From Fictibacillus arsenicus (GTDB taxonomy: Bacteria; Bacillota; Bacilli; Bacillales; Fictibacillaceae), in contig NZ_CP016761.1 of NCBI RefSeq assembly GCF_001642935.1, positions 930,001 to 994,000 on the forward strand: a stretch of 64,000 nt of DNA. Direction: 5' to 3'. Position 1 is the stretch's first letter. Each line of letters begins with the position of its first letter. Made by a program: the position numbers and the translations under genes. The notes under the pieces were generated by a model that ran no database searches, was not told the origin of the DNA, and worked only from the letters and a program-made list of their open reading frames with translations. Below are positions 12,807 to 55,965 of the stretch, piece after piece.

Positions 12807-12870
12807 TATGTGCGGGGTATTCTTGACGGAAAAGGTTTTGGCTGGTGTCGAAAAGTCTATATAAGATTAT

Positions 12871-12945
12871 TTACGGCTTAAAAAATAAAATTACAGCTTA
12901 AAAAATAAAATTACGGCTTATAAATTTTTTTTACAGCTTATAAAA
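12871..12945. repeat. Phased repeat array, TTACRGCTTA core, 4 units
   Basis: TTACGGCTTA or TTACAGCTTA begins at 12871, 12891, 12911 and 12931, exactly 20 bases apart. The A/T-rich spacers are similar at first (AAAAATAAAA twice) and then diverge. It has the same period as the five other arrays in this window but a different core, and it has no ACACGT tail. It lies just upstream of the gamma-glutamylcyclotransferase gene. Confidence 0.8.
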
Positions 12946-28553: not shown

Positions 28554-28695
28554 TTGAGCGAAAAACAATGATTTTGAGCGAAACGACAAGTAGTTTGAGT
28601 GAAGATAGAGATTTTTGAGCGTACAAAGAGTTTTCTGAGCGAAGAACAAACTTTTTGAGCGAACGTGTAATAAATATAAGAACACGTACCGTAAA
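28554..28695 (+). repeat. Phased repeat array, TTTTTGAGCG core, 6 units plus ACGTGT/ACACGT tail
   Basis: The GAGCG core (GAGTG once) begins at 28556, 28576, 28597, 28617, 28637 and 28657, giving intervals of 20, 21, 20, 20 and 20. Each core is preceded by a T-run, and the ~13 bases between cores are not conserved. The array ends in a tail (28663-28695) where ACGTGT and ACACGT form an inverted repeat around AATAAATATAAGA, followed by ACCGTAAA. The same core and the same tail occur at 55825-55965. Confidence 0.9.
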
Positions 28696-32668: not shown

Positions 32669-32812
32669 GCGAGATTTTGCCATGTTTGCGTGGAACTGCA
32701 TATCTACCGCGGGAAACTGGCTATGATCTGCGTGGAATACTATGTGTACCGCGTGAACTGATAGTTGAATGCGTGCAACTCTATCTTTTTGCGTGATCGT
32801 GTAATAAATAAA
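32669..32812 (+). repeat. Phased repeat array, GCGTGRAA core, 7 units, tail split by a MITE
   Basis: The GCG of each core lies at 32669, 32688, 32709, 32730, 32751, 32771 and 32791 (intervals 19, 21, 21, 21, 20 and 20); most cores read TGCGTGGAA or CGCGTGAAC. The tail begins CGTGTAATAAATAAA at 32798, is interrupted by repeat copy 7, and resumes with TAAATAAAAGAACACG at 33038 through ACCGTAAA at about 33063. The array core matches that of the array at 53985. Confidence 0.85.
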
Positions 32813-33037
32813 GGCTGTTTTCGCAAGCTTTGTTGCTCTTGTAAGTAGTTGATTTCCGTTCCAGGTTGCTTCGCTTTCCGCGGGGCGTGCGGTGAGCCCC
32901 CTCGCCGCTTCGCGCCTTTGAGTGGTCTCACCTGACCGCTCGTCCCGCAGGAGTCTCGCACCTTCCACTCCAATCAACTTGTCAGTGAAGGGAATGAACA
33001 AAATTATTTAAAAGCAACAATCTTTTAGAAAACAGCC
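32813..33037 (-). mobile_element. MITE-like structured repeat, copy 7 (- orientation), perfect 8-bp duplication
   Basis: 225 bp, from GGCTGTTTTCGCAAGC to TTTTAGAAAACAGCC, flanked by TAAATAAA at 32805-32812 and 33038-33045. Removing the element and one copy restores the tail sequence found uninterrupted at 54089-54120, so this is a filled site with a known empty form. It is the clearest proof of transposition in the window. Confidence 0.95.
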
Positions 33038-33156
33038 TAAATAAAAGAACACGTACCGTAAAACTGCAGTAAGTAAGCAAGGAAACTAAAAATTTCTCTT
33101 ACGACCATAACAGCAAGATTGAGGACGATTTTTGAAGAATGTACTGATAAAATTAA

Positions 33157-33183
33157 GATAAACAAGATAAACAAGATAAACAA
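33157..33183 (+). repeat. Tandem AAGATAAAC x3 upstream of adaA
   Basis: Three perfect head-to-tail copies of the nonamer AAGATAAAC end just before the adaA ribosome site. They would lie in the 5' untranslated leader or around the promoter. Copy number may vary by slippage. Confidence 0.8.
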
Positions 33184-33201
33184 GCGGATGGAGGGATGAA
33201 G

Positions 33202-48218: not shown

Positions 48219-48320
48219 TTTGATGGAATTTGTTTTTTAATTCTTTCGTGTCTTTTTGAGAAAGACAATTGAATGAAAAAGACTAAATAAATAGACATGG
48301 AAAAGGTAATAAATGGTTAA

Positions 48321-48391
48321 TCCCACGTTGATTTCAAAATACCCACGTTATTTTAAATAATCCCACGTTAAGTGACCAAAATCCCACGTTA
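48321..48391. repeat. Phased repeat array, TCCCACGTTA core, 4 units
   Basis: CCCACGTT begins at 48322, 48342, 48362 and 48383 (intervals 20, 20 and 21), with unrelated A/T-rich spacers. On the minus strand the core reads AACGTGGGA, close to the GCGTGGAA core of two other arrays, so this one may be in the opposite orientation. No ACACGT tail is found. It lies between convergent units. Confidence 0.82.
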
Positions 48392-48433
48392 ATTTTTATT
48401 TATCGAATTTTCGACATCTGCAGATAAAGTACA

Positions 48434-48483: not shown

Positions 48484-49515
48484 TTATCCATCTGTCCCGG
48501 TCTTTATGATCTTCTCAAATTGTTCCTGGGTAAGCTTTTTTGCCGGAACAGGCTGTTTCTTCTTTAGACGGCTGGAACGTCTTGTTTTTGTATATGAACC
48601 TTGAGCAAGATACTGTTGTTTCATTGCTTCAACCATAAAGTTTAGAGCGAGAATCGAAATGGCAAATGCAGCTAGCGGCGTGTAAATTACCCATAGATTA
48701 CCTCGAATCTCATAAATATAAGCACCGATCATACTGGACCATTCGTTAATCATAGAAACGGGCAGCGTATTATTGCTTAGTGGTTCAAGAGTGATAATAT
48801 CCATTCCGCCGATAAAAACCTTTAAAACTCCTAAATGAGCTACGAGCAAAAGAGTAGAAATTAATTGCTGGCTGTACAAGATGCCTAGGCGAGGTCTTAG
48901 AAATGGCAGTACATGTTTAAAGAGTGTATGAAATCTACCGCCTCCGAGTACTTTTACAGATGAGATAAATTCATTTTCTAAGAACTTTTTTGTCTCGCTC
49001 GCAACGGTAATCATGAGCGGTGGGACAGCAATTACAACAAGTATTGTTATTGCAAAAATCGTTTGTTCATCACGAGGGAGGGACCACGTGAATATCTGCA
49101 GCACTGGAAAGAGTATTAGATATGCAATGATTGTTGCCGGAGCATAATAGAATGCTTCGAAAAGTTTGTTAAACATTCTAAGTATTGATTTAGGCAGCTG
49201 ACTAAACAGAAGGCCAAGCATGGTTCCGATTAAAAGTCTTGCGAATGCGATCAAAAAGGCAAAACTTAGAGTGTACTTTGCACCATCCAACACTTTATGA
49301 AGCATACTTACCCCAAAGCGGTCTGTGCCAAGGGGCATATCTTTAAATGGTGCAATCGGTACAGAATCAATGGGCTTATTATTTTCATCATAACGAATTT
49401 GCAAGACAGGCTTTTCTTTGTCGGGTACATAATAAGAATAGATAATGCTCCCGAAAAAAAGTGCGATAATAATAAGGAATCCTGTTAAGAATAAGGGGCT
49501 TTTCCATATAGACAT
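48484..49515 (-). CDS. Oligopeptide-type ABC transporter permease (OppC-like)
   Basis: The 343-residue membrane protein has about six helices. An extracytoplasmic loop after helix 1 ends in the OppC-type PLGTDRFGVSMLHKVLDGAKYTL, and the EAA loop is SSVKVLGGGRFHTLFKHVLPFLRP (about 183-206). The C-terminus is an unusually long basic tail (TKTRRSSRLKKKQPVPAKK). Its ATG directly follows the stop of the upstream permease (TAGATG). No ATPase or binding-protein gene is adjacent, so the complex must borrow them. Confidence 0.84.
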   Translation of the reverse strand: MSIWKSPLFLTGFLIIIALFFGSIIYSYYVPDKEKPVLQIRYDENNKPIDSVPIAPFKDMPLGTDRFGVSMLHKVLDGAKYTLSFAFLIAFARLLIGTMLGLLFSQLPKSILRMFNKLFEAFYYAPATIIAYLILFPVLQIFTWSLPRDEQTIFAITILVVIAVPPLMITVASETKKFLENEFISSVKVLGGGRFHTLFKHVLPFLRPRLGILYSQQLISTLLLVAHLGVLKVFIGGMDIITLEPLSNNTLPVSMINEWSSMIGAYIYEIRGNLWVIYTPLAAFAISILALNFMVEAMKQQYLAQGSYTKTRRSSRLKKKQPVPAKKLTQEQFEKIIKTGTDG

Positions 49516-53955: not shown

Positions 53956-53984
53956 AGTGAAAAAGCTGTTGGAGATCGTCTTGT

Positions 53985-54120
53985 GCGTGAAAGGAACAAG
54001 GTCTTGCGTGAAAAGTAGGAATTCTTGCGAGAAACTTTTTGCGTGGAAAGGATGAGATCGTGCGTGGAACGGAAGAATCTCTGCGTGAACGTGTAACAAA
54101 TAAAAGAACACGTACCGTTA
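53985..54120 (+). repeat. Phased repeat array, TTGCGTGRAA core, 6 units plus tail
   Basis: GCG of the core lies at 53985, 54006, 54027, 54041, 54062 and 54083 (intervals 21, 21, 14, 21 and 21). The single 14 keeps a multiple of seven. The tail (54089-54120) reads ACGTGTAACAAATAAAAG then ACACGTACCGTTA, an uninterrupted version of the one split by repeat copy 7. It lies between the GH144-like terminator and the acyl-CoA dehydrogenase gene. Confidence 0.9.
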
Positions 54121-54188
54121 ACAAAAGGGATAATGATAATTTAAGCGAAATAAATCATAAATACTACTAGCGATAAGGAGTGATTTTC

Positions 54189-55814
54189 ATGAACACGGCT
54201 TCACAAGAACAAACGAAAAAAGGGAAAAACACATATACATTTGAAGAGTTTCTGCAAAAGCGTCAAAGCCTCGATTGGTACCGCGATGAACCGTATTTAC
54301 AACAAGCGATGAAACATTTTACGGGGACGGAATTTGAATCCGTACATCATGCAGTCCTCTCTTTTTCTCCTGCCGTTTCTTTAAAGTGGAACCGTTTGGC
54401 AGAGCAGAATGCAAGGCCAGAGGTTCGGCCTTACATGCTTCATTATGATGCATTCAATAACCGCATTGATCGGATCGTACGCCCGATGGATTTGCATCAA
54501 CTCGAAAAAGAAGTGTTCGGAGAAGGTCTTTTTTCTGGCAAAACTGCACCATGGGAAAGCTTCGTGAAACGGATGCTGATCCATCAGCTCGGAGAAGCGG
54601 GTGTTGCCTGTCCGCTGACTTGTACGATTGGTCTTATTGCTTTACTCGAGGAATATCCAAATCAAGAGCATCCTGAACTTCAAAAGATTTTGCAGCACAC
54701 AAAAGAGGGTCTTGAAGGAGATTTTGCAATTGGTGCTCAGTTCATGAGTGAAATGCAGGGAGGATCCGACCTGCCAACAAATGTTCTTGAAGCAGTGCCT
54801 GACGGGAAGAACTATCGCTTGTACGGAAACAAGTTCTTCTGTTCTGTAGCACATGCAGATTATTCAGTGGTAACGGCTAAAATTACAGGGTCAGATAAAA
54901 TCTCAACTTTTATTGTTCCGTCGTGGCTGCCTGGCGATAAAGAGAATGAAAAAAGAAACGGCTATCAAGTTAACCGGATAAAATGGAAGATGGGAACAGC
55001 CGAGCTTCCGACAGGTGAGATTCAATATAATGGAGCGCTTGCTTATCCGGTAGGGCCAGAAGGTAAAGGAATTGCTGTAGCGGTGGGTATTGTGCTGACA
55101 CTATCGAGACTTGAGATCGGAATTGCCTGTGCTGGATTTATGCTTCGTGCTGCACGGGAGGCAAAGTTGTATGGAGATTTCCGGACGGTTTTTGGCAAGA
55201 AGGTGAAGGATTATCCTCTATCTGCTAGTACATTAAAACGAATCGAGAATGCTGCTGAACGGACGACCGCGGGTGCCTTTAAAATATACGACCTATTCCT
55301 GAAACTGGATCGGCCTTTAAATCCTGGCATACCAAAGGACCAGCCGATCGAATTAAGAAAACAGCTGTTCAACTTAAGAGAGCTCGTTTTATTGCAGAAA
55401 ATTTGTGCGACCAATGAGGGAGCAGAAGTGTTAAGGGATGCAATTTCAGTGTTTGGCGGACACGGAGTGATGGAGGAATTCTCGTCACTGCCGCGCATCT
55501 TCCGGGATGTTGTTGTGAACGAACAATGGGAAGGCCCTCGTAATCTGTTATTAACGCAAATATATCGAGACATTCAAAGAGTGGCAGACTGGTATTCACC
55601 GGCAGATTTTGTAGAAAGTGTGCTTCAAGGGGCATCGCAGGAAACAATAGAAGAATATGCAGAAAAATTAACTAATTTGATGCAAAAACCAGTATGCGGG
55701 GACGTTTCAGAGGAATCCATCGAGGCTGCAGAAGAATGGGATGCATTTTGTGATGGGTTTTATAAGGTTTATCAGACGGTAGCCCTTCAAGAAATTCATA
55801 CTGAAGCAAAATGA
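54189..55814 (+). CDS. Acyl-CoA dehydrogenase family protein (AidB-like)
   Basis: The 541-residue flavoprotein shows GDFAIGAQFMSEMQGGSDLPTN (FAD/substrate loop, about 178-199), KFFCSVAHADYSVVTAKITG, LTLSRLEIGIACAGFMLRAAREAKLYGDFRTVFGKKV and AISVFGGHGVMEEFSSLPRIFRDVVVNEQWEGPRNLL. The last segments are typical of AidB-like acyl-CoA dehydrogenases. The substrate is unknown. The ATG at 54189 follows AAGGAG. It lies inside the sugar locus but has no shared operator and is probably unrelated to it. Confidence 0.87.
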   Translation: MNTASQEQTKKGKNTYTFEEFLQKRQSLDWYRDEPYLQQAMKHFTGTEFESVHHAVLSFSPAVSLKWNRLAEQNARPEVRPYMLHYDAFNNRIDRIVRPMDLHQLEKEVFGEGLFSGKTAPWESFVKRMLIHQLGEAGVACPLTCTIGLIALLEEYPNQEHPELQKILQHTKEGLEGDFAIGAQFMSEMQGGSDLPTNVLEAVPDGKNYRLYGNKFFCSVAHADYSVVTAKITGSDKISTFIVPSWLPGDKENEKRNGYQVNRIKWKMGTAELPTGEIQYNGALAYPVGPEGKGIAVAVGIVLTLSRLEIGIACAGFMLRAAREAKLYGDFRTVFGKKVKDYPLSASTLKRIENAAERTTAGAFKIYDLFLKLDRPLNPGIPKDQPIELRKQLFNLRELVLLQKICATNEGAEVLRDAISVFGGHGVMEEFSSLPRIFRDVVVNEQWEGPRNLLLTQIYRDIQRVADWYSPADFVESVLQGASQETIEEYAEKLTNLMQKPVCGDVSEESIEAAEEWDAFCDGFYKVYQTVALQEIHTEAK

Positions 55815-55824
55815 AATTGCGTTT

Positions 55825-55965
55825 GAGCGAAAAGTGGTGCTTTTTGAGTGTAGCTAGCTCATTTTGAGCGAAACTCAACCACTTTTGAGCGCAGATTAGA
55901 GTTTTTGAGCGTAGGTCTGAATTTTTGAGCGTACGTGTAATAAATATAAGAACACGTACCGTAAA
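55825..55965 (+). repeat. Phased repeat array, TTTTTGAGCG core, 6 units plus tail
   Basis: GAGCG (GAGTG once) begins at 55825, 55846, 55866, 55887, 55907 and 55927 (intervals 21, 20, 21, 20 and 20), each preceded by a T-run. The tail (55933-55965) is identical over 31 bases to that at 28663. It begins 10 bases after the dehydrogenase stop with no terminator between, so it should be transcribed. Confidence 0.92.

Follow-up and report, generated by a model that had tools for sequence, protein, structure and literature searches.

What are the arrays of short cores that recur every 20 or 21 bases between the genes of Fictibacillus arsenicus, and does their regularity point to a protein bound along the DNA? 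The question is raised by a locus at position 55825 of the window, the 64,000-nucleotide stretch analysed here, which corresponds to bases 930001-994000 of the 4.06-Mb single-contig F. arsenicus genome. A first-pass annotation had listed six such loci with 4-7 copies of a core each. All six arrays are present where it placed them, with four to six copies; no array of seven was seen. The spacing of 20 or 21 bases was confirmed at the six loci, with a single odd step of 14 bp in the 53985 array.

Six arrays in the window and their anchors

The 55825 array (55823-55933, plus strand) begins 9 bp past the stop codon of the gene at 54180-55814 and consists of six TTTTGAGCGWA units of the type that we call T1. 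Its cores start at 55824, 55845, 55865, 55886, 55906 and 55926, that is, in steps of 21, 20, 21, 20 and 20 bases. The T1 anchor follows at 55934-55962 on the same strand; its constant tail CGTGTAATAAATATAAGAACACGTACCGT, with the inverted repeat ACGTGT...ACACGT, is the one found behind 99 distinct arrays.

Three other arrays of the window, all on the plus strand, are also of the T1 type. The first (28554-28663, anchor at 28664-28692) is flanked by a terminator and a convergent topoisomerase gene and has six TTGAGCGWA units, with TGAGYGWA cores in steps of 20, 21, 20, 20 and 20. The second, at the 32669 locus (32686-32797), has six T/CGCGKGRAA units with a GCGTG core, and its T/CGCGKG cores, six when the one touching the tail is included, follow each other in steps of 20-21. 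Its anchor is split into a left part (32798-32810) and a right part (33039-33059), the latter including a copy of the AAATA target duplication, by a short element inserted at 32811-33038. This element has the ends AAGGCTGTTTT...AAAACAGCCT, contains the TTTCCGCGGGGCG repeat and is accompanied by an AAATA-like target duplication. The third (53984-54089, anchor at 54090-54118) has six TGCGTGRA units, with TGCGTG cores in steps of 21, 21, 14, 21 and 21; the step reduced to 14 bp apparently reflects a 7-bp deletion.

The remaining two arrays carry a different anchor, T2 (TGTCGAAAA). The 48321 array (48320-48390, minus strand, anchor at 48408-48416 on the same strand) holds four AACGTGGGATTA units, which read TCCCACGTTA on the plus strand; its four TCCCACGTTA cores (minus strand: AACGTGGG) lie in steps of 20, 20 and 21. 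It is kept in the genome G014, and G006, G011 and G016 have the same anchor with other cores. The 12871 array (12871-12940, plus strand) is preceded by its anchor at 12846-12854, also on the plus strand, which is followed by AGTCTATA; the array comprises four TTACRGCTTA units in steps of 20, 20 and 20, of which one remains at this locus in G014. The placement of the arrays between genes, usually after a gene end, holds for five of the six; the 12871 array lies about 165 bp behind the previous gene, and the next gene starts about 45 bp downstream of it.

In the 99 distinct T1 elements the tail CGTGTAATAAATAWAAGAACACGTACCGT, with the inverted-repeat arms ACGTGT and ACACGT, adjoins the array directly. 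Exactly six units are present in 67 of these 99, and 444 of 449 steps measure 20 or 21. Information content reaches 2 bits at core positions and is about 0.1 at most spacer positions. Within the T1 core, TGAGCGAA, G1, G3, G5 and A7 are nearly fixed, and positions 0, 2 and 4 are specific to the array, with 90.5% identity within arrays vs 78.1% between them; once the AGGTG arrays of other species are included, the T1 set shares GYGNA alone. All units of an array point in one direction and the cores are not palindromic.

The T2 anchor, TTGTCGA, starts about 20 of 77 sampled arrays, and the cores after it differ (GGCTCATAAA, TTACGGCTTA, AACGTGGGATTA). With both T1 and T2, then, one constant anchor serves several core types, and the T1 anchor is paired with differing cores even inside a single genome (G009, G011 and F. 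arsenicus). About half of the arrays have neither anchor. Outside the window the exact T1 tail was found in 69 stretches, all of them in Fictibacillus genomes among the named matches, and its number per genome varies, with none in G001, G006 and G017 and 28 in G007. The box recognised by Spo0A is TGNCGAA; we dropped the reading of TTGTCGA as such a box because the base after TCGA varies. In the T1 arrays of L102, L117 and L036 two unit types, TTGAGCGAAA and GGYGGTTCGACAAGC, alternate, still at steps of 20-21.

Abundance and genomic position

The arrays were searched for de novo as chains of 7-mers recurring at 19-22 bp, with block shuffles as controls; the F. arsenicus genome was sampled as 20-kb stretches rather than tiled. 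This search recovered five of the six window arrays and none in shuffles. It detected arrays of period 20/21 in F. arsenicus (28 in 394 kb), G014 (25 in 320 kb) and G017 (14 in 240 kb), and none in nine block shuffles of these three genomes. The comparison of regular spacing with shuffled DNA that the first-pass annotation had proposed thus came out in its favour, the 28 arrays in 394 kb of F. arsenicus against none being non-random and genome-wide. At other periods the same three genomes gave 0-5 arrays, mostly at the harmonic of 40, and in sampled F. arsenicus DNA every same-strand distance of up to 70 between TGAGCG cores falls near 20.5, 41 or 61. The repeat is a fixed unit of two turns. 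A larger sample gave ~55 arrays per Mb in F. arsenicus, or roughly 220 per genome. An array usually has 4-8 units, which measure 20 or 21 bp and combine a core of 8-12 bp with a largely free spacer. TRF at its default score picks up only parts of the arrays.

Only 6 of the 77 arrays of the larger sample lie within a long ORF, though coding DNA makes up 80% of the sequence. A small number of chains are coding repeats that do not belong to the group, such as the coding-like ones at F. arsenicus 1174617 and 1098596 and at G017 2973866. As a general reading, coding repeats are ruled out by the mixture of 20- and 21-base steps, which breaks any reading frame, so that the arrays are non-coding. Ordinary genes were found when ten neighbours were scanned around arrays.

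In gaps with both elements, the array lies beyond the terminator in 66 of 73 cases. Terminators are about as frequent at genes with arrays as at genes without them, which indicates that the arrays are no substitute for terminators. Of the 93 T1 arrays assigned to gaps, 57 are found between tandem genes, 31 between convergent and 5 between divergent ones; divergent, promoter-only gaps are avoided, since they make up ~22% of long gaps generally. The T1 tail is directed downstream in 47 of the 57 tandem gaps, and the TCCCACGTTA or GCTCATAAA cores behind genes occur on either strand. Of 56 exact AACACGTACCGT T1-tail sites of the F. arsenicus contig, the first half holds 30, of which 24 are on the plus strand, and the second half 26, of which 21 are on the minus strand; only 5 of the 56 fall between 1.6 and 2.7 Mb. 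This bias may represent co-orientation with replication, if the contig starts at the origin, or may be explained by gene orientation alone.

Divergence of cores and spacers, and turnover of arrays

Plain tandem duplication predicts that cores and spacers diverge equally. Between species, cores turned out to be 5-16 times less different than spacers. In the T1 array of the topoisomerase gap, compared among four species with a fixed motif, differences affect 3 of 240 core positions (1.3%) and 99 of 489 spacer positions (20%). Between F. arsenicus and G014, at 12 loci of several families (totals that include the coding-like repeat at F. arsenicus 1098596), they affect 23 of 553 positions in cores (4.2%), 112 of 557 in spacers (20.1%) and 152 of 997 in flanks (15.2%), a contrast somewhat exaggerated, and far more so than in the four-species test, by the picking of core positions according to their agreement inside one species. 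That selection could at most about halve the apparent core divergence, and the observed gap is larger. The conservation of cores and not of spacers, first noticed within the window, thus extends to comparisons between species, and the equal conservation of both that would speak against it was observed in neither. Array cores are under purifying selection and spacers are largely free to drift, and plain recent duplication is excluded for most arrays.

Orthologous gaps often retain an array whose core family differs from species to species, every unit being affected by the change. The topoisomerase gap holds T1/GAGCG arrays in G000, G002, G013 and G014; nine other species have TNATCTGTCCGATT arrays in it, G001 has a ATTTTTGYCCGYAAAT array, and G003, G006, G007 and G017 have nothing or a remnant. 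In the gap behind the gene at 48484 the core is AACGTGGGATTA in F. arsenicus and G014, AACGTGGGAATA in G006 and TACCGCGGAATTA in G016, always with the T2 anchor; most other species lack an array in this gap. Behind the gene at 54180-55814 three species have a T1 array and two have TTTATAGGCC with the T2 anchor. At F. arsenicus 927388 the core TTTTTGTYCGGT, shared with G014, is replaced by TTTTTGTTTGAT in every unit in G017. Since arrays are missing from given gaps in some species, no single array is indispensable.

How arrays arise is suggested by the youngest-looking ones. Arrays of 12-19 near-identical 20-bp units are present at F. arsenicus 3051695 and at G014 2934080 and 2971310, and the G014 array of 19 units occupies a gap in which F. 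arsenicus holds five diverged units; two-unit duplications were found in G004 and G012. These cases indicate that slippage makes and renews arrays and that selection then retains the cores. They also show that the earlier argument against recent tandem duplication, sound for most arrays as regards plain duplication, was too strongly worded.

The core families are unevenly distributed. Six Fictibacillus genomes contain 70-222 GAGCG pairs each, the other twelve 0-13. Of 200 Bacillales genomes, 22 from 17 genera have pairs of CTCATAAA at array spacing, with a maximum of 42 per genome; a phylum-wide sample searched for this pair alone gave isolated hits outside Bacillales, one per genome as in the control, which corresponds to chance level. 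De novo arrays are present in 80-kb samples of four other genera, and sixteen 20-kb samples, too small to show absence, gave none.

Known repeat classes and a candidate docking function

The arrays had been described as unlike known repeat classes, and this is where the first-pass annotation failed. Subirana and Messeguer reportedly described, in J Bacteriol in 2020 (10.1128/JB.00229-20), tandem repeats of Bacillus with a constant size of 20-21 nt and a variable sequence. According to their published text, most Bacillus tandem repeats measure 52 or 20-21 nt, with constant size and variable sequence; the 20-21 nt are equated with two helix turns, and a polymerising protein or small RNAs are proposed (PMC8161180). 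Their program SATFIND detects such repeats when four or more of regular length follow each other. The arrays match this description, published in 2020-2021 with the two-turn remark included: they are 20-21 nt in size and non-coding, form several families per genome that differ between species, share a short conserved sequence, have at least four repeats and show an uneven taxonomic distribution (PMC8161180). Fictibacillus arrays thus agree with the Bacillus class in constant size, family- and species-variable sequence, non-coding nature and a short conserved sequence; unlike in the class as published, their spacers have diverged to randomness. The text of PMC8161180 contains no Fictibacillus, no anchors, no analysis of terminators or intergenic position and no comparison of cores and spacers between species. 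Relative to that text, the new features are the two anchors, the T1 element with its six units, the selection measured on the cores, the position past the terminator and the exchange of cores in orthologous gaps; neither the anchors nor this exchange between species figured in the first-pass annotation. No later explanation of the 20-21-nt Bacillus repeats was found in the literature searched, and a search of literature text for the core sequences returned unrelated chance matches only.

Other systems share some of these properties. Iterons are direct repeats with a short core, about two-turn spacing and 3-7 copies that are cooperatively bound by one protein. The arrays resemble those of plasmid and phage origins in their direct repeats and in the spacing of their cores, but they occupy about 220 chromosomal sites, with no replication gene nearby and no plasmid or phage match. 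CRISPR and TIGR arrays likewise have constant repeats, variable spacers and a leader-like constant end, but their spacers are of guide length and turn over as units, and effector genes lie close by; the arrays differ from them by their ~10-nt spacers, point changes at about the flank rate, hundreds of loci and ordinary genes as neighbours. REP/BIME elements are 20-40-bp palindromes at the 3' ends of genes, often in convergent gaps, and bind DNA gyrase or other proteins of the chromosome. Like these enterobacterial elements, the arrays have hundreds of extragenic copies at 3' ends of genes, whereas their units are direct and non-palindromic, their cores vary between arrays and they show no RNA or hairpin signal. 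Roles reported for REP/BIME include DNA supercoiling, transcription termination and mRNA stabilisation (PMC3733652).

The two-turn step, the selected cores, the free spacers, the lack of RNA structure, the position beyond the terminator and the nucleation-like anchor together form a pattern that would suit protein sites on DNA. We tentatively propose, with a confidence somewhat short of even, that the arrays serve, outside genes, as docking sites for a DNA protein that binds cooperatively. Protein binding had already been argued from the spacing; conserved cores and free spacers fit that argument, although the shared helix face alone leaves the absence of one-turn and three-turn steps unexplained. 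The putative protein would nucleate at the anchor and form a row on one side of the helix, with a subunit or dimer every two turns, and would tolerate a family of related cores, such as the T1 set, in which GYGNA is common and the neighbouring positions vary by array. Slippage of two-turn units would homogenise an array and occasionally renew it with a new core variant, in which case a joint change of the cores would not in itself call for a multitude of proteins. Like cores within arrays and unlike cores between them would be explained most parsimoniously by one tolerant binder for each anchor class together with homogenisation by slippage. As for the role, the position of the arrays, comparable to that of REP/BIME, lets us hazard the guess of a boundary or topology site where transcription units end.

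A bolder version, which we consider doubtful, is that a hitherto undescribed Bacillales protein nucleates at a fixed anchor, polymerises on one DNA face in two-turn steps, reads the core loosely and marks the ends of hundreds of transcription units; array and protein specificity would drift together, and orthologous gaps would keep the device while its sequence is exchanged. If true, a protein that polymerises two turns at a time and is tolerant in its reading of the sequence would represent a novel type of DNA-coating factor in bacteria. The Bacillus 20-21-nt satellites have been a riddle, with no function assigned, since 2020. Across the 18 Fictibacillus genomes compared, the arrays keep their period, their location past the terminator, their anchor and, within a lineage, their core, and these conserved features make the riddle approachable by a bait experiment. 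Functional elements that change so fast elude ordinary motif searches.

Very different cores within one genome are hard to reconcile with a single binder. Several DNA-binding proteins, each with a core specificity of its own that changes between species, could be responsible instead, core switching being the outcome of gain, loss and drift of these proteins. Many specific binders are possible because the GAGCG pairs are abundant or nearly lacking in a genome, as if the specificity were present or absent, and the shift from AACGTGGGATTA to TACCGCGGAATTA in all units of one locus with an unchanged anchor fits them as well. The reading is nevertheless unlikely in our estimation: about a dozen proteins would be needed, and the pairing of the T1 anchor with different cores inside one genome (G009, G011, F. 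arsenicus) means that core type does not track the genome strictly.

It is likewise improbable that the arrays are functionless minisatellites, made by a slippage process that favours two-turn units, in DNA behind genes where they do no harm, and then left to decay. Such a process would produce the fresh 12-19-unit arrays and the two-unit duplications of G004 and G012, would allow array loss in some species and, as neutral insertions do, would avoid promoter-only gaps. Decay, however, should strike cores and spacers equally, which the divergence tests contradict, and it predicts neither constant anchors nor exactly six T1 units.

An element acting at the RNA level, with a transcript of the array whose repeated core binds a protein or another RNA, or which is processed to small RNAs as proposed in PMC8161180, is very unlikely. 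The downstream-pointing T1 tail in 47 of 57 tandem gaps and the transcription of the 52-nt satellites of B. coagulans (PMC8161180, PMC8625621) favour it, but in 66 of 73 cases a terminator lies ahead of the array, the TCCCACGTTA or GCTCATAAA cores occur on either strand, and a strict step of 20/21 is unnecessary for an RNA signal. Moreover, no excess of RNA structure was found on either strand (mean z of 0.02 and -0.13), and an Rfam search of the window gave no match at the gathering score.

Finally, anchored arrays could be short non-autonomous mobile elements or one end of a transposon inserting behind terminators, as two observations in F. arsenicus might suggest. Eight T1 arrays at different loci are almost identical and share their spacers, and a 280-bp stretch with an array at F. 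arsenicus 1019721 is missing in G014, where the empty site has a clean joint with short ATTTTT repeats. We give this reading little credence, for neither a pair of terminal inverted repeats nor a consistent target duplication was seen at the T1 copies, there is no phage or plasmid match, the T1 tail is absent from viral contigs, and spacers are unique in most arrays. The dispersed T1 copies are weakened as proof of mobility because several of the alike ones sit inside the larger TTTCCGCGGGGCG repeat, a possible carrier.

The TTTCC(G/A)CGGGG motif of a larger dispersed repeat has six copies in the window, at 1669, 3869, 28966, 32875, 39536 and 43192. Elsewhere, related copies of this repeat lie beside several T1 arrays that are almost identical and are their possible carriers. 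At 33155-33184, immediately upstream of an Ada-like regulator gene, AAGATAAAC forms a perfect tandem repeat of 9 bp in 3.3 copies. In another Bacillales genome (L181), around 1197-1700, the scan detected long arrays with a period of 22 bp, of 10 and 13 units.
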